Origin: Rhynchopus sp. YZ270_cl-10
Taxonomy: Eukaryota > Euglenozoa > Diplonemea > Diplonemida > Diplonemidae
NCBI GenBank assembly: GCA_964035575.1
Contig: OZ037901.1
Coordinates: 1,178,001 to 1,242,000 of the forward strand
DNA length: 64,000 nt
Direction of reading: 5' to 3'
A program made the translations under genes and the position numbers. Position 1 is the first letter of the stretch; the number at the start of each line of letters is the position of its first letter. Below, piece after piece: positions 41,709 through 62,650 of this stretch. The notes below the pieces were generated by a model that saw nothing but the letters and a program-made list of their open reading frames with translations, searched no databases and was not told where the DNA came from.

Positions 41709-42110
41709 GTACGAGTTGCAGCAGCCCACCGATGGTGGGCTGCGTTTGGTAACCACACGTTACGGTTAACGCGTGTATCGCATATACATAGCGTTGTGTG
41801 TATCGTATACGAAGACCGTTGTGTGCAACGCATGTGTAGACCGTTCCGTTATCAACCACACGAGCCTGCAAGAGTGTTTCCGCGGCGCTAGGACGCCGTT
41901 GTCGCTGCCCACCGAAGGTGGGCAGCGCTTGGTAACCACACGTTGCCGTTAACGCGTGTATCGCTTATACAGAGCGTTGTGTGTATCGTATACGAAGACC
42001 GTTGTGTGCAACGCATGTGTAGACCGTTTCGTTATCATAACCACACGAACCAGCGAAGTGTCACAGCGGCGCAGGTGTTGCGTACACGCGATGGCGTTAA
42101 ACCCGTAGCA
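41709..42110. repeat. Tandem duplication (183-bp period) with a covarying hairpin
   Basis: Two copies share TTAACGCGTGTATCGC, GTGTGTATCGTATACGAAGA and CAACGCATGTGTAGACCGTT. Each starts with a perfect 10-bp hairpin, at 41721-41743 and 41904-41926. One pair changes from A:T to T:A between copies with pairing kept. Confidence 0.75.
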
Positions 42111-42839
42111 TGCTTCACGTGCACACGAACCGGCGAAGTGTTTTCGAGACCGTCACCCTAAATTCAACTACTCAAAAAAATGTCCATTTTTCCAAAATGA
42201 CCCCACCACATGCCGGGATCGGCTCGGAAATGCGACAAAACGCACTTTCAGGGGGGGGGGGGACGCACTTTTTTTTGGGGGAAAATGCACAGGTATGTTG
42301 CGCACTTTTTTTACTATTGATTTTCGGTTTTTGGGAAATTTTGGACCCGATTTAGAAAAAAGCCTGCAAAGAGGAGACGACGCTGGTGGACAAAACTCCA
42401 TCTTTCGATTGAAAAGAATATCTTAATCATTTTTTGATTGGAAATGAGCAAGATAGGACAAAAATCTTGCGCTTCTTTTATTCAAACAGTTTTAATTCCC
42501 CGCCCCGTACCCAAAACGTAAACACGACTTTCAATCAGAAAAAAATAGTTTTTTCTCCTTTGTTCTTCCACATGCGCTGGTTTTTTGTATTTCGTCAATT
42601 TTTATCGAAACGCATCCCCTCATTTCGACAGCGAAACGTTTCCCCATGTATTGCACGGGAAACAATATGACAAACAGGTGCAGGGTGGTTCCGTGCATAT
42701 CATAGGGAAGATACAGTAAAGTGGGCTAGGTCTGTGGTACGTGAGGTAGGCATTTAGCTTCGATATATATCTATCTCAGCTGTTGGGTGGTGTTGCGGAG
42801 CAGCGTTGAGTGCACGACGTGACACTTTACGCGTAAAAA

Positions 42840-42912
42840 TAAAAGAGAGTAGAAACTTACCCTCATGTTTTTTTTTTGCAGATAAACACACATTTCGTTA
42901 AAAGGTCAAACC
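42840..42912 (+). promoter_or_regulatory. Leader and acceptor of GILT gene 1
   Basis: A T run and TTTGCAG (AG at 42880-42881) lie 31 nt before the ATG. The sequence after the AG is identical to that before GILT gene 2. Confidence 0.55.
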
Positions 42913-43542
42913 ATGCAGACCCTCCAGGCTGTTGTGTTGGCGTCCCTCGCGTTTGTGTCCGCCTCCGCCCAGGAGAAGACGAACGTGACTTGGTACACTG
43001 AGGCTATGTGACCCGGATGCCAGGAGTCCATGGACCCCGTGATGAAAGTGCTCAAGGGGGACGGGATTCTGACGATTATGAACTGGGACTACGTGCCGTA
43101 CGGGAACGCACGTAACGAGAGCGGTAGGATTGTGTGCCAGCACGGGAGGACTGAGTGCACTGGGAACATGGCTGAGGTGTGTGTGATGGACATTACCAAG
43201 TACGACGTGCTCACCTACATGACGTTCGCTGAGTGTGTCGAGAGCACCAACGAGAAGCTGACGGAACTGCAGAAGTGTGCCGAGAAGCAGAACCTTGACT
43301 GGTCCGCCATCCAGACCTGCATGTCTGGCAGCCAGGGGGCGAACCTCATCAACATTGCGGGGAAGAAGACTGAGAAGCAGAACATCCCTTACACCCCATA
43401 CTTCTTTGGCCACGGGAAAGAGATCAAGAACCCCAGCCACATCACCAAGATTGTATGCAACCTGTGGACAGGAACCAAGCCGGGATGCTGCAAAGACACG
43501 AACGACTCTCCGGCATTGAACATCACGCGTTCGTCCGCGTGA
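42913..43542 (+). CDS. GILT-type thiol reductase with in-frame TGA at the active site: probable selenoprotein (copy 1)
   Basis: GILT enzymes reduce disulfides in lysosomes or are secreted. The frame of 209 residues starts with a signal peptide (MQTLQAVVLASLAFVSASA). Codon 33 is TGA (43009-43011). The surrounding residues are YTEAM-TGA-PGCQESMDP, so TGA stands exactly at the first Cys of the family's CxxC redox centre. Downstream the frame is open for 176 codons with the GILT signature CQHGRTECTGNMAEVC (C-Q-H-G-x2-E-C-x2-N-x4-C) and later family cysteines. It ends at a normal TGA at 43540-43542. TGA is a stop for other genes here and Trp is TGG, so recoding as selenocysteine is the best reading. 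I did not find a convincing SECIS in the 3' flank. A spoiled gene is possible but unlikely. Confidence 0.85.
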
Positions 43543-43644
43543 AGGCCTCGTGGTGTTCACTGAAGGAAACTGTTGTTCCATGATAAAAAATGGCACATAA
43601 TGTGCAAATGAAGACAAGTGATTTTTTCCGTTTTTTGATTAAAT

Positions 43645-43710
43645 GGTGCTCCAGGGGGGGCCGATATTGACAGGTCGCTGACAGGTCGTTGACTCATTTC
43701 CTATAGCACC
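43645..43710. mobile_element. 66-bp MITE with 7-bp target duplication in the GILT 3' flank
   Basis: Ends are GGTGCT and AGCACC. ATTAAAT flanks both sides (43638-43644 and 43711-43717). The matching site after GILT gene 2 (about 61815) is empty and has a single ATTAAAT, which proves insertion after the duplication. Confidence 0.85.
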
Positions 43711-43715
43711 ATTAA

Positions 43716-43792
43716 ATGTTACATTTCTTGAGCTTTCTGGGGTGGCAGTCCTTTTTGCGAAGCGGCTTTTTTGGTGCACAGGCTTGTCCGAT
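43716..43792 (+). repeat. Direct repeat in the GILT-gene B spacer, first copy
   Basis: GTTACATTTCTTGAGC through TTTTTGCGAAGCGGCTTTT to GCACAGGCTTGTCCGAT. It occurs again at 44371-44446 in the same spacer and twice in the GILT 2 spacer (61822-61896 and 62207-62282). It marks an older internal duplication. Confidence 0.75.
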
Positions 43793-43935
43793 CCCCAAGA
43801 TCATGTGCAACCTGTGACACGAGCCAAGCCGGGATGCTGCACAGTCACGAACGACTCTCCGACACTGAACATCACGCGTTCGTCCGCGTGAACCCTCGGT
43901 GTTTACTCAAGGAAACTGTCGTTCCATGATAAACA
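43793..43935 (+). pseudogene. Diverged copy of the last ~40 codons and early 3' UTR of the GILT gene
   Basis: It matches GILT from the ATCACCAAG-like start through CAAGCCGGGATGCTGCA, ACGAACGACTCTCCG and the end (ACGCGTTCGTCCGCG then TGA), plus GGAAACTGT, GTTCCATGATAAA after the stop. The 5' part of the gene is absent. It may be a relic of an earlier GILT gene. The conserved post-stop segment is useful for judging what in the 3' UTR matters. Confidence 0.75.
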
Positions 43936-43964
43936 AATACCCAGTTTTTTCTTTTTTTTTTTTG

Positions 43965-44228
43965 CAACTGACGCGCTGGAGAGGCCCTGGCCAAACATGG
44001 CGTGTTAGGGGAAATATATTCGTCGCACAGATTTAGATCAGAGACCCCACCCGATATGTTTTTCATTTTACCTCTTTTGTGCTCCGCCACCGACACTCCC
44101 ATTTTCTGTACTTCAGGCAATAATCATATACCATCACACACTGACACAGTCCGCGTGTGCTGGAAACAATCAATTTTTTCAAAAAAAAACAAACGGTCGA
44201 GATCTGATCAAGCGAAACGGATATATTT
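43965..44228. other. About 265-bp insertion relative to the GILT 2 copy
   Basis: The GILT 2 flank runs straight from a T tract into ACACTTTCTTATCGTGGCG (about 62065), while here GCAACTGACGCGCTGG to GGATATATTTTT intervenes. The origin is not recognised. T runs at both edges hide any target duplication. Confidence 0.5.
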
Positions 44229-44705
44229 TTACACTTTCTTATCGTGGCGTGCTTTGCACCAATCACCTTTTATGGTGTGTGTGTGTTGTGCGGAGGCATT
44301 GCTGTTTGTGGATGCGTGTGGCATGTAGTGTACATATAAAGACAAATGTTTTGTCTGTTCTTTGGTGAAATGTTACATTTCTTGAGCTTTCTGGGTGGGG
44401 GTCCTTTTTGCGAAGCGGCTTTTCTGGTGCACAGGCTTGTCCGATAGCCACCTGCCCTGTAACGGAGCTGTGTGGCCGTGTCTGCATGCTTTTGTGAAGA
44501 CACAAACACTTTAGACGTTTTCTTGAAAAACGGATCGTTTGTTGCTCTGATGGGGAGGGTCTCTGCACCACCCCCTTTCATGCACACGGCGTGAGCAGTG
44601 AAGTTACAGACCACTGGCTTCCGGACTACACTGCGACCACTCATTAGTTGCACTCCCAGCCCCCCACCCTTTTTCCCCTTGCACAATAAACGTTATAAAA
44701 AGTCT

Positions 44706-44818
44706 GAGGGCACGTTCCTGTCTTGTATTCAACCAAAAAAAATGCTTTGTTTTCTTTTCCAAATCCCACCGCCCACCCACCTGACACACGTACACCCTGC
44801 AGGTCTGCACTACATACC
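44706..44818 (+). promoter_or_regulatory. Leader of gene B with acceptor AG
   Basis: Near identical to the gene A leader. AG is at 44801-44802, 16 nt before the ATG. CAATAAACGTTATAAAA at about 44683 just upstream is a likely poly(A) signal for the preceding transcription unit. Confidence 0.55.
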
Positions 44819-47800
44819 ATGCTGCCTCGCGCTTTGGACACGGGGGGACATTTCTTGTATGTCTTTCTTTTGTTGTCATGTGCCGTGATGTGCGACGCAA
44901 AATCTTTCTACTGGTTCAGAGCCATTGGAATGTACCAAAAGTCTCGCGGTCACGATTTTTTCGGTTCCGAGGACTACGCCGCAGTCGGGAACCTTAGCGT
45001 TGTTGATGGCACCTCCAAAGACTTTGGCTGTGAAGCGTGCACAAGCAACGGCGACTGCTCAAGCGCCTTCAGCCGTGCAGAGTTATACCACATAGAGTCG
45101 AAAGACGGAGCACTCTCCTTCCAGGTGTACATGAAGGCCTGGGAATCAGACGCTTTCTCTTCCTCATGCAGCTACTCAAACGGTGACGACGAGCTGAGGG
45201 AGAAGACCTGCACATTCGACATGAAGGCGTACGCCAAAGTTATACCGCACACAGTGACATGCGACGACCGTGGGACGTTCATGACAGTGCAGTTCAAGTG
45301 GTGGCCCGATGTCACCAACGCACCACCGACACCGTCACCACCAACACCAGCACCACAGACCCCTGCACCGGATTTGATGTGTTCTGCGTTTTCGTGCCCT
45401 GCCAACTGGTCCCCGAAAGCGGGTAATGTTGCGTGCAGTACCACACACCAGCTCCAGGCTGATGTGTGCGGAGGGACCTCCATCCAGGATGGCTCCACAG
45501 GGTCCGCAAGGTGCTGCTCTCACAATGGTGCAGACTGTGTCACCACAGACGCAGGAGGCAGCTGTTACGGAGATACACTCACCTACTCCCAGGCCATGGA
45601 CGTGTGTGCACTTGACGGCCGTCGTCTCTGCACCCTTGCTGAGTTGACACAGTGCTGCGGTACAGGTTGCAATTATGACTATACCAACGTCTGGGTGTCC
45701 GACGTGGTACCCGTCAGTTACTGTGACAAGGAGACTTGCTGCGATCTTAAACCAACCCCTGCGCCTCCGACACCTTCTCCGCCTACCCCATCGCCGCCAA
45801 CTCCCTCACCTCCGACACCGTCACCACCTACACCGAGTCCACCCACACCGTCACCACCGACTCCATTCCCACCCACTCCGTCACCGCCAACTCCGAGTCC
45901 ACCGACACCATCCCCACCTACTCCGTCACCACCGACTCCAATTCCACCTACACCGTCACCACCGACTCCTTCACCACCGACTCCGTCTCCACCGACTCCA
46001 TCCCCACCGACTCCGAGTCCACCTACACCGTCTCCACCGACTCCTTCACCACCGACTCCATCCCCACCGACTCCATCCCCACCGACTCCGAGTCCACCTA
46101 CACCGTCTCCACCGACTCCTTCACCACCGACTCCATCCCCACCGACTCCATCCCCACCGACTCCGTCACCACCAACTCCGAGTCCACCTACACCGTCTCC
46201 ACCTACTCCGTCACCACCGACTCCAATTCCACCTACACCGTCACCACCGACTCCGTCACCACCAACTCCGAGTCCACCGACACCATCCCCACCTACACCG
46301 TCACCACCGACACCGTCACCACCGACTCCGAGTCCACCTACACCGTCACCACCGACTCCTTCACCACCGACTCCGTCTCCACCGACTCCATCCCCACCTA
46401 CTCCATCCCCACCTACACCGTCTCCACCGACTCCTTCACCACCGACTCCATCCCCACCGACTCCGTCACCACCAACTCCGAGTCCACCTACACCGTCTCC
46501 ACCGACTCCTTCACCACCGACTCCATCCCCACCTACTCCGTCACCACCGACTCCAATTCCACCTACACCGTCACCACCGACTCCGTCACCACCAACTCCG
46601 AGTCCACCGACTCCATCCCCACCGACACCGTCACCACCGACTCCATCCCCACCGACTCCGTCACCACCAACTCCGAGTCCACCGACACCATCCCCACCTA
46701 CACCGTCACCACCGACACCGTCACCACCGACTCCGAGTCCACCTACACCGTCACCACCGACTCCTTCACCACCGACTCCGTCTCCACCGACTCCATCCCC
46801 ACCTACTCCATCCCCACCTACACCGTCTCCACCGACTCCTTCACCACCGACTCCATCCCCACCGACTCCGTCACCACCAACTCCGAGTCCACCTACACCG
46901 TCTCCACCGACTCCTTCACCACCGACTCCATCCCCACCTACTCCGTCACCACCGACTCCAATTCCACCTACACCGTCACCACCGACTCCGTCACCACCAA
47001 CTCCGAGTCCACCGACTCCATCCCCACCGACACCGTCACCACCGACTCCATCCCCACCGACTCCGTCACCACCAACTCCGAGTCCACCTACACCGTCTCC
47101 ACCGACTCCATCCCCACCGACTCCATCCCCACCTACACCGTCTCCACCGACTCCTTCACCACCGACTCCATCCCCACCTACTCCGTCACCACCGACTCCA
47201 ATTCCACCTACACCGTCACCACCGACTCCGTCACCACCAACTCCGAGTCCACCGACTCCATCCCCACCGACACCGTCACCACCGACTCCATCCCCACCGA
47301 CTCCGTCACCACCAACTCCGAGTCCACCTACACCGTCTCCACCGACTCCATCCCCACCGACTCCAATTCCACCTACACCGTCACCACCGACTCCGTCACC
47401 ACCAACTCCGAGTCCACCTACACCGTCTCCACCGACTCCATCCCCACCGACTCCATCCCCACCTACACCGTCTCCACCGACTCCATCCCCACCTACTCCG
47501 TCACCACCGACTCCAATTCCACCTACACCGTCACCACCGACTCCGTCACCACCAACTCCGAGTCCACCGACTCCATCCCCACCGACACCGTCACCACCGA
47601 CTCCATCCCCACCGACTCCGAGTCCACCTACACCGTCTCCACCGACTCCGTCACCACCGACTCCGTCACCACCAACTCCGAGTCCACCGACTCCATCCCC
47701 ACCGACACCTTCACCACCGACTCCATCCCCACCGACTCCGTCACCACCGACTCCAATTCCACCTACACCGTCACCACCGACTCCGTCACCACCAACTCCG

Positions 47801-50800
47801 AGTCCACCGACTCCATCCCCACCGACACCTTCACCACCGACTCCATCCCCACCGACTCCGTCACCACCGACTCCAATTCCACCTACACCGTCACCACCGA
47901 CTCCGTCACCACCAACTCCGAGTCCACCTACACCGTCTCCACCGACTCCATCCCCACCGACTCCGTCACCACCAACTCCGAGTCCACCTACACCGTCTCC
48001 ACCTACTCCGTCACCACCGACTCCAATTCCACCTACACCGTCACCACCGACTCCGTCACCACCAACTCCGAGTCCACCTACACCGTCTCCACCGACTCCA
48101 TCCCCACCGACTCCATCCCCACCTACACCGTCTCCACCGACTCCAATTCCACCTACACCGTCACCACCGACTCCGTCACCACCAACTCCGAGTCCACCGA
48201 CTCCATCCCCACCGACACCGTCACCACCGACTCCATCCCCACCGACTCCGAGTCCACCTACACCGTCTCCACCGACTCCGTCACCACCAACTCCGAGTCC
48301 ACCGACTCCATCCCCACCGACACCTTCACCACCGACTCCATCCCCACCGACTCCGTCACCACCAACTCCGAGTCCACCTACACCGTCTCCACCGACTCCA
48401 TCCCCACCGACTCCATCCCCACCTACACCGTCTCCACCGACTCCATCCCCACCTACTCCGTCACCACCGACTCCAATTCCACCTACACCGTCACCACCGA
48501 CTCCGTCACCACCAACTCCGAGTCCACCTACACCGTCTCCACCGACTCCATCCCCACCGACTCCATCCCCACCTACACCGTCTCCACCGACTCCATCCCC
48601 ACCTACTCCGTCACCACCGACTCCAATTCCACCTACACCGTCACCACCGACTCCGTCACCACCAACTCCGAGTCCACCGACTCCATCCCCACCGACACCG
48701 TCACCACCGACTCCATCCCCACCGACTCCGAGTCCACCTACACCGTCTCCACCGACTCCGTCACCACCAACTCCGAGTCCACCGACTCCATCCCCACCGA
48801 CACCGTCACCACCGACTCCATCCCCACCGACTCCGAGTCCACCTACACCGTCACCACCGACTCCGTCACCACCAACTCCGAGTCCACCTACACCGTCTCC
48901 ACCGACTCCATCCCCACCGACTCCATCCCCACCTACTCCGTCACCACCGACTCCAATTCCACCTACACCGTCACCACCGACTCCGTCACCACCAACTCCG
49001 AGTCCACCGACTCCATCCCCACCGACACCGTCACCACCGACTCCATCCCCACCGACTCCGAGTCCACCTACACCGTCTCCACCGACTCCGTCACCACCGA
49101 CTCCGTCACCACCAACTCCGAGTCCACCGACTCCATCCCCACCGACACCTTCACCACCGACTCCATCCCCACCGACTCCGTCACCACCGACTCCAATTCC
49201 ACCTACACCGTCACCACCGACTCCGTCACCACCAACTCCGAGTCCACCGACTCCATCCCCACCGACACCTTCACCACCGACTCCATCCCCACCGACTCCG
49301 TCACCACCGACTCCAATTCCACCTACACCGTCACCACCGACTCCGTCACCACCAACTCCGAGTCCACCTACACCGTCTCCACCGACTCCATCCCCACCGA
49401 CTCCGTCACCACCAACTCCGAGTCCACCTACACCGTCTCCACCTACTCCGTCACCACCGACTCCAATTCCACCTACACCGTCACCACCGACTCCGTCACC
49501 ACCAACTCCGAGTCCACCTACACCGTCTCCACCGACTCCATCCCCACCGACTCCATCCCCACCTACACCGTCTCCACCGACTCCAATTCCACCTACACCG
49601 TCACCACCGACTCCGTCACCACCAACTCCGAGTCCACCGACTCCATCCCCACCGACACCGTCACCACCGACTCCATCCCCACCGACTCCGAGTCCACCTA
49701 CACCGTCTCCACCGACTCCGTCACCACCAACTCCGAGTCCACCGACTCCATCCCCACCGACACCTTCACCACCGACTCCATCCCCACCGACTCCGTCACC
49801 ACCAACTCCGAGTCCACCTACACCGTCTCCACCGACTCCATCCCCACCGACTCCATCCCCACCTACACCGTCTCCACCGACTCCATCCCCACCTACTCCG
49901 TCACCACCGACTCCAATTCCACCTACACCGTCACCACCGACTCCGTCACCACCAACTCCGAGTCCACCTACACCGTCTCCACCGACTCCATCCCCACCGA
50001 CTCCATCCCCACCTACACCGTCTCCACCGACTCCATCCCCACCTACTCCGTCACCACCGACTCCAATTCCACCTACACCGTCACCACCGACTCCGTCACC
50101 ACCAACTCCGAGTCCACCGACTCCATCCCCACCGACACCGTCACCACCGACTCCATCCCCACCGACTCCGAGTCCACCTACACCGTCTCCACCGACTCCG
50201 TCACCACCAACTCCGAGTCCACCGACTCCATCCCCACCGACACCGTCACCACCGACTCCATCCCCACCGACTCCGAGTCCACCTACACCGTCACCACCGA
50301 CTCCGTCACCACCAACTCCGAGTCCACCTACACCGTCACCACCGACTCCGTCACCACCAACTCCGAGTCCACCGACTCCATCCCCACCGACACCGTCACC
50401 ACCGACTCCGAGTCCACCCACACCGTTACCACCAACTCCGAGTCCACCGACTCCATCCCCACCGACTCCATCCCCACCGACACCGAGTCCACCTACACCG
50501 TCACCACCGACTCGGTCACCACCGACTCCGTCTCCACCGACTCCGAGTCCACCCACACCGTCTCCACCGACTCCATCCCCACCGACACCGTCACCACCGA
50601 CTCCGAGTCCACCGACTCCATCCCCACCGACTCCATCCCCACCCACTCCAAGTCCACCTACACCGTCACCACCTACCCCCTACTTGTACTATTGGTTCCA
50701 GGCGATTCGGTTCAGCCAAACAAATCGTGGCTCTGAACTTGGACCGGCAGAGTATACTATGAGCGGAAGTCTGAGTACACTTGACGTCAATAAGTCATTT

Positions 50801-53800
50801 GATTGCATCACGTGTGAGAGTGACAACACGCCCTGCGTGACCAATGAGGTTCACGCAACCTCAGGAGCGGTGTACACAGGTAGGGAGTTGATACTGACAG
50901 TCAGCTTTGACGCTTGGGTTGATAACGCTGGTGACCGCTGCACTTACAATGCTGGGGAGCTCGACGGAGATAATGAGCGTGTTCGGAAGTCCTGCACGTT
51001 GGACATGCGTGACTGGAATCCCAGAAAATTATTCACGTACGTATGCTCTGGAGGTGATGCATCAGTCGACGTGCAGTTCCGTTGGTGGCATGACAGCACG
51101 AGTGCGCCACCAACATCATCACCACCAACTGCTTCACCAGCGACACCGTCACCACCCACGTCGTCGCCTCCTACACCGAGTCCACCGACACCGTCACCAG
51201 CGACACCAGCACCCACTGCTCTTTCGGAACACATTGCTGACTACCCCTGTAACGAAACCGTGCTGAATGTGTGGCCATTTATAGGTCCGGATTCCACTAA
51301 CTGTTTCGTGAACCCATGGTACTGCGCCAGGACGGGACTTGCATACGACGCGGAAGCATCAGGCCTTATTTCCGCACAAGAGAACGTCTTGGACTGCTCG
51401 GGACTGTGTCTTGCGGAGCCTACCTGTACAGCAGCGCTGTTGGATGTGTCAAGAATGACCTGCTACCTGCACTCAGACCTGTCGATGTGGACACTGGAGT
51501 ACAACCTTTACAATGGTTGGCAGAGGTATTCTGTGGAGAGAGTGTGCAGACCTACATCCGCACCGGACACTTCTGCACCACCGACTCCGTCACCACCGAC
51601 ACCAGCACCCACCGCTCTTTCGGAACACATTGCTGACTACCCCTGTAACGAAACCGTGCTGAATGTGTGGCCATTTATAGGTCCGGATCCCACTAACTGC
51701 TTCGTGAACCCATGGTACTGCGCCAGGACGGGACTTGCATACGATGCCGAAGCATCAGGACTTATTTCCGCACAAGAGAACGTCTTGGACTGCTCGGGAC
51801 TGTGTCTTGCGGAGCCTACCTGTACAGTTGCACTGCTCGATGCGTCAGGAGGGATCTGCTACCTGCACTCAGACCTGTCGATGTGGCCACTGGGGTACAA
51901 CCTTTACAATGGTTTTCAGAGGTATTCTGTAAAGAGAGTGTGCAGACCTACATCCGCACCGGACACTTCTGCACCACCGACACAGTCACCACCGACTCCA
52001 TCGCCACCTACACCGAGGCCACCTACACCTGCACCACCGACACATTCACCACCGACTACATCACCACCTACACCGTCACCGCCAACACCTGCGCCACCGA
52101 CACCGTCACCACCGTCACCAGCTCCCACCGCTCTTTCGGAACACATTGCTGACTACCCCTGTAACGAAACCGTGCTGAATGTGTGGCCATTTATAGGTCC
52201 GGATCCCACTAACTGCTTCGTGAACCCATGGTACTGCGCCAGGACGGGACTTGCATACGATGCCGAAGCATCAGGCCTTATTTCCGCACAAGAGAACGTC
52301 TTGGACTGCTCGGGACTGTGTCTTGCGGAGCCTACCTGTACAGTTGCACTGCTCGATGCGTCAGGAGGGATCTGCTACCTGCACTCAGACCTGTCGATGT
52401 GGCCACTGGGGTACAACCTTTACAATGGTTTTCAGAGATATTCTGTGGAGAGAGTGTGCAGACCTACATCCGCACCGGACACTTCTGCACCACCGACTCC
52501 GTCACCACCGACACCAGCACCCACTGCTCTTTCGGAACACATTGCTGACTACCCCTGTAACGAAACCGTGCTGAATGTGTGGCCATTTATAGGTCCGGAT
52601 CCCACTAACTGCTTCGTGAACCCATGGTACTGCGCCAGGACGGGACTTGCATACGATGCCGAAGCATCAGGCCTTATTTCCGCACAAGAGAACGTCTTGG
52701 ACTGCTCGGGACTGTGTCTTGCGGAGCCTACCTGTACAGTTGCACTGCTCGATGCGTCAGGAGGGATCTGCTACCTGCACTCAGACCTGTCGATGTGGCC
52801 ACTGGGGTACAACCTTTACAATGGTTTTCAGAGGTATTCTGTAAAGAGAGTGTGCAGACCTACATCCGCACCGGACACTTCTGCACCACCGACACAGTCA
52901 CCACCGACTCCATCGCCACCTACACCGAGTCCACCTACACCGTCGCCACCGACTCCGTCACCGCCAACTCCTGCGCCACCGACACCGTCACCACCGTCAC
53001 CAGCTCCCACCGCTCTTTCGGAACACATTGCTGACTACCCCTGTAACGAAACCGTGCTGAATGTGTGGCCATTTATAGGTCCCGATTCCACTAACTGCTC
53101 CGTGAACCCATGGTACTGCGCCAGGACTGGGCTTGCATACGACGCGGAAGCATCAGGCCTTATTTCCGCACAAAAGAGCTTGGACTGCTCGGGACTGTGT
53201 CTTGCGGAGCCTGCCTGCACAGCAGTGCTGTTGGATGCGTCAGGATCGACCTGCTACCTGCACTCAGACCTGTCGATGTGGACACTGGAGTACAACCTTT
53301 ATTACAATGGTTGGCAGAGGTATTCTGTGGAGAGAGTGTGCAGACCTACATCCGCACCGGCAACTTCTGCACCACCGACACCAGCACCCACTGCTCTTTC
53401 GGAACACATTGCTGACTACCCCTGTAACGAAACCGTGCTGAATGTGTGGCCGTTTATAGGTCCGGATTCCACTAACTGCTCCGTGAACCCATGGTACTGC
53501 GCCAGGACTGGGCTTGCATACGACGCGGAAGCATCAGGCCTTATTTCCGCACAAAAGAACTTGGACTGCTCGGGACTGTGTCTTGCGGAGCCTGCCTGCA
53601 CAGCAGTGCTGTTGGATGCGTCAGGATCGACCTGCTACCTGCACTCAGACCTGTCGATGTGGACACTGGAGTACAACCTTTATTACAATGGTTGGCAGAG
53701 GTATTCTGTGGAGAGAGTGTGCAGACCTACATCCGCACCGGACACTTCTGCACCACCGACACAGTCACCACAGACCCCTGCACCGGATTTGATGTGTTCT

Positions 53801-54175
53801 GCGTTTTCGTGCCCTGCCAACTGGTCCCCGAAAGCGGGTAATGTTGCGTGCAGCACCACACACCAGCTCCAGGCTGATGTGTGCGGTGCTGGAGGGACCT
53901 CCATCCAGGATGGCTCCACAGGGTCCGCAAGGTGCTGCTCTCACAATGGTGCAGACTGTGTCACCACAGACGCAGGAGGCAGCTGTTACGGAGATACACT
54001 CACCTACTCCCAGGCCATGGACGTGTGTGCACTTGACGGCCGTCGTCTCTGTACCCTTGCCGAGTTGACACAGTGCTGCGGTACAGGTTGCAATTATGAC
54101 TATACCAACGTCTGGGTGTCCGACGTGGTACCCGTCAGTTACTGTGACAAGGAGACTTGCTGCGATCTTGCCTGA
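44819..54175 (+). CDS. Gene B: giant secreted modular protein, two YWF domains, ~330 Pro-Thr-Ser pentapeptides, six Cys repeats, about 3,118 aa
   Basis: The start at 44819 gives the same signal peptide as gene A. Order: YWF domain near 28-165; Cys-rich domain near 186-312; PPTPS array near 312-1954; second YWF near 1954-2095, identical in DNA to that of gene A; six repeats of about 105 residues near 2134-2970 ([19 protein letters not shown] ... [14 protein letters not shown]); and a final Cys-rich domain near 2990-3118 ending ETCCDLA. The six repeats have a PAN/apple-like look (about six Cys, hydrophobic core), not a sure match. There is no membrane anchor. It is probably a cell-surface or matrix fibre with binding heads on a long stiff proline stalk. 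Two large frames overlapping the array, in another + frame and antisense, are artefacts of a 15-bp period. Confidence 0.85.
45752..50680 (+). repeat. 15-bp coding minisatellite (PPTPS array), about 4.9 kb
   Basis: About 328 units of CCACCGACTCCGTCA-type sequence with a few interruptions coding Ile, Phe, Leu or Arg. Higher-order duplications are visible. A block of 1,440 bp (96 units) from about 47490 recurs at about 48930, matching at every line compared until about 48890/50330. A shorter ~405-bp duplication lies near 46260-47080. Confidence 0.95.
51219..53760 (+). repeat. Six tandem Cys-rich modules of gene B
   Basis: Modules start near 51219, 51616, 52132, 52525, 53013 and 53394. Modules 2, 3 and 4 are nearly identical ([12 protein letters not shown]). 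Modules 5 and 6 pair with each other (QKSLDCSG / QKNLDCSG). Module 1 differs ([12 protein letters not shown]). Linkers after modules 2 and 4 are longer and similar, so a two-module block was duplicated. Confidence 0.9.
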
Positions 54176-61089: not shown

Positions 61090-61719
61090 ATGCAGACCCT
61101 CCAGGCTGTTGTGTTGGCGTCCCTCGCGTTTGTGTCCGCCTCCGCCCAGGAGAAGACGAACGTGACTTGGTACACTGAGGCTATGTGACCCGGATGCCAG
61201 GAGTCCATGGACCCCGTGATGAAAGTGCTCAAGGGGGACGGGATTCTGACGATTATGAACTGGGACTACGTGCCGTACGGGAACGCACGTAACGAGAGCG
61301 GTAGGATTGTGTGCCAGCACGGGAGGACTGAGTGCACTGGGAACATGGCTGAGGTGTGTGTGATGGACATTACCAAGTACGACGTGCTCACCTACATGAC
61401 GTTCGCTGAGTGTGTCGAGAGCACCAACGAGAAGCTGACGGAACTGCAGAAGTGTGCCGAGAAGCAGAACCTTGACTGGTCCGCCATCCAGACCTGCATG
61501 TCTGGCAGCCAGGGGGCGAACCTCATCAACATTGCGGGGAAGAAGACTGAGAAGCAGAACATCCCTTACACCCCATACTTCTTTGGCCACGGGAAAGAGA
61601 TCAAGAACCCCAGCCACATCACCAAGATTGTATGCAACCTGTGGACAGGAACCAAGCCGGGATGCTGCAAAGACACGAACGACTCTCCGGCATTGAACAT
61701 CACGCGTTCGTCCGCGTGA
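61090..61719 (+). CDS. GILT-type thiol reductase with in-frame TGA at the active site: probable selenoprotein (copy 2)
   Basis: The predicted 209-residue protein is identical to copy 1 (42913-43542), with the TGA at codon 33 (61186-61188) in the same YTEAM-TGA-PGC context and the same CQHG...NMAEVC signature. The two copies also share the 3' flank for over 700 bp, apart from two insertions in copy 1, so the duplication is recent. The 5' flank differs: elements E1 and E2 lie between the old acceptor T run and the gene. The E2 target duplication leaves a CTCTCAG immediately before the shared leader, so an AG is still present at 61057-61058 but with a poorer pyrimidine tract. Expression could therefore be altered. 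That both copies keep the TGA is not independent evidence because they are so young. Confidence 0.83.
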
Positions 61720-62199: not shown

Positions 62200-62650
62200 G
62201 TGAAATGTTACATTTCTTGAGCTTTCTGGGTGGGGGTCCTTTTTGCGAAGCGGCTTTTCTGGTGCACAGGCTTGTCCGATAGCCACCTGCCCTGTAACGG
62301 AGCTGTGTGGCCGTGTCTGCATGCTTTTGTGAAGACACAAACACTTTAGACGTTTTCTTGAAAAACGGATCGTTTGTTGCTCTGATGGGGAGGGTCTCTG
62401 CACCACCCCCTTTCATGCACACGGCGTGAGCAGTGATGTTACAGACCACTGGCTTCCGGACATACACTGCGACCACTCATCAGCTGCACACCCTTTTCCC
62501 CCTTGCACAATAAACGTTATAAAAAAGACACCCCCTCCCACCCTCCCTCCTCCGCCTTCTCATCGTTGCACTATCACCCCCCAGCCGTATCCCCACGCTT
62601 GCGTTGACGCTTCCAAGCGTTTCCCCACGTTTTCAATGCGAAGGGAAAAC
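62200..62650 (+). other. Shared 3' part of the GILT spacer and poly(A) signal
   Basis: It matches 44365-44700 up to CACAATAAACGTTATAAAA (about 62505), a likely poly(A) signal. After this the flanks of genes B and C differ. No gene. Confidence 0.6.

Follow-up and report, generated by a model that had tools for sequence, protein, structure and literature searches.

In the genome of the diplonemid Rhynchopus sp. YZ270_cl-10, a TGA codon takes the place of the first active-site cysteine (CxxC) in 11 copies of a GILT-type thiol reductase gene, and this codon is very probably decoded as selenocysteine (Sec). Two copies lie in the window, the 64,000-nucleotide stretch of contig C69 that was analysed: copy 1 at 42913..43542 (+) and copy 2 at 61090..61719 (+), the latter located by a genome search with the Pfam GILT profile PF03227. 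The in-frame TGA is at 43009..43011 (+) in copy 1 and at 61186..61188 (+) in copy 2.

GILT identity, genome copies and cysteine paralogues

Copy 1 is a frame of 209 codons (209 residues) that ends in TGA and contains one interior TGA (1/209), at codon 33. Codon 36 (43018..43020, +) is TGC, such that the CxxC active site is present as UxxC, with codon 36 as its putative resolving cysteine. An earlier, sequence-only reading of this DNA had described a GILT frame interrupted solely by the TGA at codon 33, had placed that TGA at the first active-site cysteine and had noted the GILT signature in frame, and all three observations agree with the searches reported here. The read-through product matched PF03227 over profile positions 1–106 of 107 (E 1e-20, 74.5 bits) and mouse GILT (PDB 6nwx) at E 1.4e-19. 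In the alignment to 6nwx, codons 33 and 36 stand opposite the first and second cysteines of the mouse CGAC motif, and the translation contains CQHGRTECTGNMAEVC, of the form CQHGxxECxxNxxExC, which we take to be the GILT signature. A structure model of copy 1, made with Cys substituted for Sec and nine sequences in the alignment, had a mean pLDDT of 79.9, with a strand at residues 23–28 and a helix at residues 34–48 that begins just past residue 33. Foldseek matches of this model in the PDB were headed by mouse GILT (6nwx, E 6.6e-11), followed by DsbA-type oxidoreductases, pointing to a thioredoxin fold. Copy 1 and 6nwx share 29% identity over 187 columns (TM 0.70–0.76), and their CQHG regions and later cysteines align; they differ at the first active-site position, which is Cys in the mouse protein and UGA in Sec-GILT. 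On all features tested, the copy 1 enzyme is a GILT. Residues 1–19 (42913..42969, +; MQTLQAVVLASLAFVSASA) form a likely signal peptide, as judged by eye, and the product is likely a secreted or lysosomal UxxC thiol reductase.

The whole genome (152.4 Mb, 126 contigs) was searched with PF03227, and all 38 first-look candidates were scored; none of 14 control genomes gave a match. Of the 17 match rows returned, 11 contain a single interior TGA and six are free of stops, the latter corresponding to five loci (the one on C19 was matched in two pieces). The TGA is at the identical codon in 11/11 interrupted copies and UxxC is kept in all, the residues after the TGA being P-G-C in ten copies and P-A-C in one (L017, on C59). 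Since 11 loci carry one TGA each, always at the same codon, the TGA in copy 1 is not a chance event. The copies form a group A of seven (two on C69, four on C52 and one on C59 near 556 kb), a group B of two (C48, and C52 near 609 kb) and a group C of two (C28, and C59 near 268 kb). Groups A and B end in TGA and group C in TAG. A T-run followed by AG, a possible cis- or trans-splice acceptor, was observed at 42868..42881 (+), 31 nt 5' of the copy 1 ATG; diplonemids trans-splice. A T-rich stretch with AG was also found 5' of the ATG in the second group A copy and in the group B copy compared, was missing in the two group C copies compared, and occurs shortly 5' of the ATG of the SPS2 gene (L024) as well, as expected of splice acceptors.

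All five stop-free GILT loci of the genome have Cys at the TGA position. The sequence-only reading had asked whether relatives carry unrelated residues at codon 33; among the same-genome paralogues, the residue there is Cys instead. The paralogue on C19 reads ESLCPFCKE (CPFC), and those on C13 (three loci) and C50 read ESYCPCSGT, that is, CPCS with no CxxC. The C19 protein is 37% identical to Sec-GILT and shares with it VP[WY]GNA and IVCQHG..ECTGN, but has CPFC where Sec-GILT has UPGC. Three transcriptome proteins (P0004–P0006, 52–58% identity) start downstream of the TGA position; these starts would fit a UGA in the relatives concerned, without showing one.

Decoding of the in-frame TGA

The genome proved to contain key components of the Sec machinery that the sequence-only reading had proposed as a check: tRNA-Sec (anticodon TCA), eEFSec and SPS2, and SepSecS in addition. 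eEFSec is encoded by an ORF on C18 with GTP_EFTU, euk_SelB_III (PF21208, E 6.7e-27) and eEFSec_4th (PF21131, E 1.4e-11) domains. Among the best 120 of its 2595 relatives, the closest named one was from Diplonema papillatum (63% identity); further entries among these 120 had 60–81% identity, one had 100%, and the next ones had 49% and lower. SepSecS was found on C92 (E 2.1e-109). SPS2, located on C41 with 142.8 bits (cut-off 125), has an in-frame TGA in the context FTGLKG-TGA-GCKIPQ, and 3/5 matches to GPx (PF00255) have one TGA, in the context NVAS[KEA]-TGA-G[LY]T; in both genes this is presumably the known Sec site of the family. Three of five Sep15/SelM family matches also have one TGA, counted wherever placed. 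No TGA was found in any of the five genome matches to MsrA, a protein described as widely Sec-containing in algae in the accessible text of PMC7539508, and SelW/SelT-type Rdx (PF10262) gave one weak genome match, without TGA. With tRNA-Sec, eEFSec, SepSecS and TGA-bearing SPS2 and three GPx genes all present, Sec decoding in this organism is well supported. Going by titles and the starts of abstracts, none of the papers listed in literature searches dealt with selenocysteine in diplonemids.

If the TGA were a true stop, the ATG at codon 40 would start a protein of 170 residues that lacks both the signal peptide and CxxC, or else the copies would be pseudogenes. Two database predictions, P0002 (marked as the window's own) and P0003 (source ENA), are indeed 170-residue proteins starting at codon 40; since the database copies found start past the TGA, gene predictions hide Sec-GILT. 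The part of the gene after the TGA nevertheless behaves as coding sequence: between copy 1 and the group C copy L007, residue identity there is 80.7%, with dN 0.118, dS 0.480 and dN/dS ~0.25, and the reading frame downstream of the TGA is under purifying selection. The part that a start at codon 40 would largely discard is more conserved still, with 3/53 codons changed between these two copies in the first 53 (TGA included) and 63/157 in the remainder. The pseudogene variant was rejected on the conserved frame, TGA and UxxC in 11/11 copies together with dN/dS, and the presence of Sec machinery also argues against termination, which makes a true stop highly improbable. A single TGA within an otherwise open frame might equally be read as an ordinary amino acid, through a changed code or through read-through with Trp or Cys. 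Groups A and B of these very genes, however, use TGA as their terminal stop, the other TGA-bearing genes belong to the known selenoprotein families SPS2 and GPx, and the tRNA with the TCA anticodon is tRNA-Sec by Rfam, so that this reading has scarcely any probability left; the earlier judgement that a changed code was unlikely holds on the same grounds. The identification of a selenoprotein thiol reductase, likewise made from the letters, gains support from the Sec machinery, the Cys paralogues and the purifying selection after the TGA.

Under Sec decoding, the ribosome would meet UGA at codon 33 of the Sec-GILT mRNA, and a SECIS element in the 3' UTR (best candidate 44489–44557) would recruit eEFSec carrying Sec-tRNA together with a protein of the SBP2 type. 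The UGA at codon 33 would then be decoded as Sec, with translation still ending at the TGA of codon 210. In the enzyme, the selenolate of U33 would be expected to attack the substrate disulphide and C36 to resolve the mixed selenenylsulphide, as Cys does in ordinary GILT.

At 42913–43119, comparison with L007 and L008 showed few synonymous changes in the first 53 codons, yet the 5' UTRs compared share nothing obvious. The conservation of these codons would reflect either a nucleotide-level element around the UGA or a conversion tract. A stem-loop redefinition element right after the UGA was considered and dropped, as folding just 3' of the UGA is not special (z -0.8); folding of the first 207 nt of the gene gave z -0.7.

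The conserved 3' UTR block

An 89-nt block occurs 11 times in the genome at 98–100% identity. Ten of the 11 blocks lie 3' of a Sec-GILT gene on the same strand, with a GUGA 864–1485 nt past the TGA (1153 nt in L017). The stretch from GUGA to UGAUGG is invariant at 59/60 positions across all 11 blocks, and the remainder of the 3' UTR diverges widely in group C. The block contains the candidate SECIS elements of copy 1 (44489..44557, +; from the conserved block and its fold) and copy 2 (62324..62392, +; from the conserved block). The free-energy fold of the 70-nt core of copy 1 consists of helix I (44489–44493/44553–44557, +), a 4x4 loop in which GUGA (44494–44497, +) faces GAUG (44549–44552, +), helix II (44498–44507/44537–44548, +; ten pairs, two bulges) and an apical helix (44516–44521/44527–44532, +). 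We presume that the GUGA/GAUG loop could form U-U, G-A and A-G pairs as in the SECIS quartet.

There is a somewhat better than even chance that 44489–44557, the best SECIS candidate for copy 1, is the element in question. The competing explanation, that the block is some other 3' UTR element (for localisation, stability or a small RNA) and that the true SECIS lies elsewhere in the 3' UTR, falls a little short of an even chance. It draws on the apex of the hairpin, as a canonical SECIS has an unpaired apical AA and the candidate has none, and on the energetics: folding of the block is no better than that of shuffled sequences (z +1.0, on a stretch shifted by three bases), and the free-energy minimum in L007 and L008 is another fold than that of copy 1. 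It also draws on the Rfam SECIS model RF00031, which had no match genome-wide at E <= 10 (133 of 1764 candidates scored), nor any at 42000–46000 of the window or at six loci, GPx and SPS2 among them; little can be concluded from this negative, as the model misses the GPx and SPS2 genes too. Against it, the invariant stretch from GUGA to UGAUGG is bounded as a SECIS core should be, and helix I is kept in L007 through changes of U-G to U-A, U-A to U-G and C-G to U-A, although two of its pairs are lost in L008 and one in L003 and covariation in the block, which would have favoured the SECIS reading, was not significant (99/500 shuffles, six distinct rows). An architecture rule for the candidate, drawn up post hoc, was satisfied by 8/3000 mononucleotide shuffles, and no rival hairpin was common to all copies among the best scan matches (in the set of 11 copies and in that of five). 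Custom SECIS scans requiring the AA gave matches only at a level equalled on the opposite strand. A hairpin of the form AUGA...AAA...UGA (-24 kcal/mol) was observed 3' of the C39 GPx gene (L045) and looks like an ordinary SECIS; the strictest custom filter missed it, which shows that these scans are insensitive.

One block, located on C52 near 1,144,803 (L046, 4804–4900), has no GILT match directly upstream and is thus an orphan. Conversely, the Sec-GILT locus L001 (C52:1108993–1112298) has lost its block by deletion, the UTR being continuous across the gap. The block-less L001 and the orphan block are natural test cases for the function of the block. A degenerate repeat derived from the 3' end of the gene itself was observed in the 3' UTR at about 43797–43935 and in the equivalent place after copy 2; it is present in group A copies except L001 and missing from groups B and C. 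Beyond the 3' UTR elements of copy 1, a very long frame occupies 44819–54172 (3118 residues from 44819); its product matched PAN, at E 3.6e-20 over the full protein, and also MANEC, with no single stretch passing alone.

Known Sec-GILT proteins and the number of tRNA-Sec genes

Whether Sec-GILT had been described before was left as a question by the sequence-only reading; it had, in PMC2398784 and PMC7539508, and the family itself is thus known. As far as the accessible text of PMC2398784 goes, Sec-GILT was reported in 2008 from the Global Ocean Sampling survey as three sequences from unknown organisms, with a SECIS predicted in one, and no organism with Sec-GILT was then known. Those sequences share with the present ones a GILT homologue with Sec and a eukaryotic origin; here, in contrast, a single assembled genome that also encodes Sec machinery carries 11 full-length genes, and the candidate SECIS is non-canonical. 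Sec-GILT was listed for algae in 2020 (PMC7539508), whereas the present organism is a diplonemid, a group without mention in the accessible part of that source. What is unusual here is the copy number, the departure of the candidate SECIS from the canonical form and the set of 43 tRNA-Sec genes described below. With intact Sec-GILT genes and Cys paralogues in one assembled genome, alongside the main factors for decoding, Sec/Cys exchange in a lysosomal-type reductase becomes testable.

tRNA-Sec genes were located by a genome search with RF01852, which scored 53 of 14,786 first-look candidates. The gathering score of 47 was exceeded by 43 matches of 73.9 bits each and by one of 60.9 bits (C18), and nine further matches fell below this cut-off. 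In the control genomes, a score of 47 was reached in 5/14, and 14/14 had matches below it. Five of the nine sub-cut-off loci were inspected: four were tRNA-Ser in mixed tRNA arrays and the fifth (C55) received no tRNA call by ARAGORN. All tRNA-Sec loci scanned have the anticodon TCA. The 43 genes (on C5, C7, C17, C36, C42, C53, C60, C75 and C93; loci L009–L016, L050–L053, L055 and L058–L078) have identical bodies, with G73 and a T-run immediately 3' in 43/43. Their flanks all differ when 100 nt on either side are combined, with 41 distinct upstream flanks, and some of the genes are in 447-nt-spaced repeats. From the identical bodies, G73 with terminator and distinct flanks, it follows that the genes are not a single locus duplicated by the assembly, and that they have not decayed.

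A survey of ~10,000 genomes gives at most four tRNA-Sec genes per eukaryotic genome, with compensating changes as its criterion, and one diatom with eleven predictions, nine of them undisrupted (PMC5330540, accessible text). If expressed, the 43 genes would be far above the survey's top of four per genome and would supply unusually much Sec-tRNA. Tentatively, and with more doubt than confidence, it may be proposed that a diplonemid lineage scaled up Sec decoding, with functional tRNA-Sec genes numbering 43 or more and with 11 Sec-GILT genes recoded by a variant SECIS (a GUGA/UGAU core without apical AA); this would suggest that a disulphide reductase based on selenium is secreted in large amounts. 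A large tRNA copy number may be general in this genome, some tRNAs being in dense arrays. To our knowledge, Sec is held to be absent in land plants. A count of 68 tRNA-Sec genes in 22 species, named in land plants in the accessible text of PMC7678280, was given no weight for that reason. Dense mixed tRNA arrays were observed on C1, C2 and C6 (L023 and L079–L081) and are alike across several contigs.
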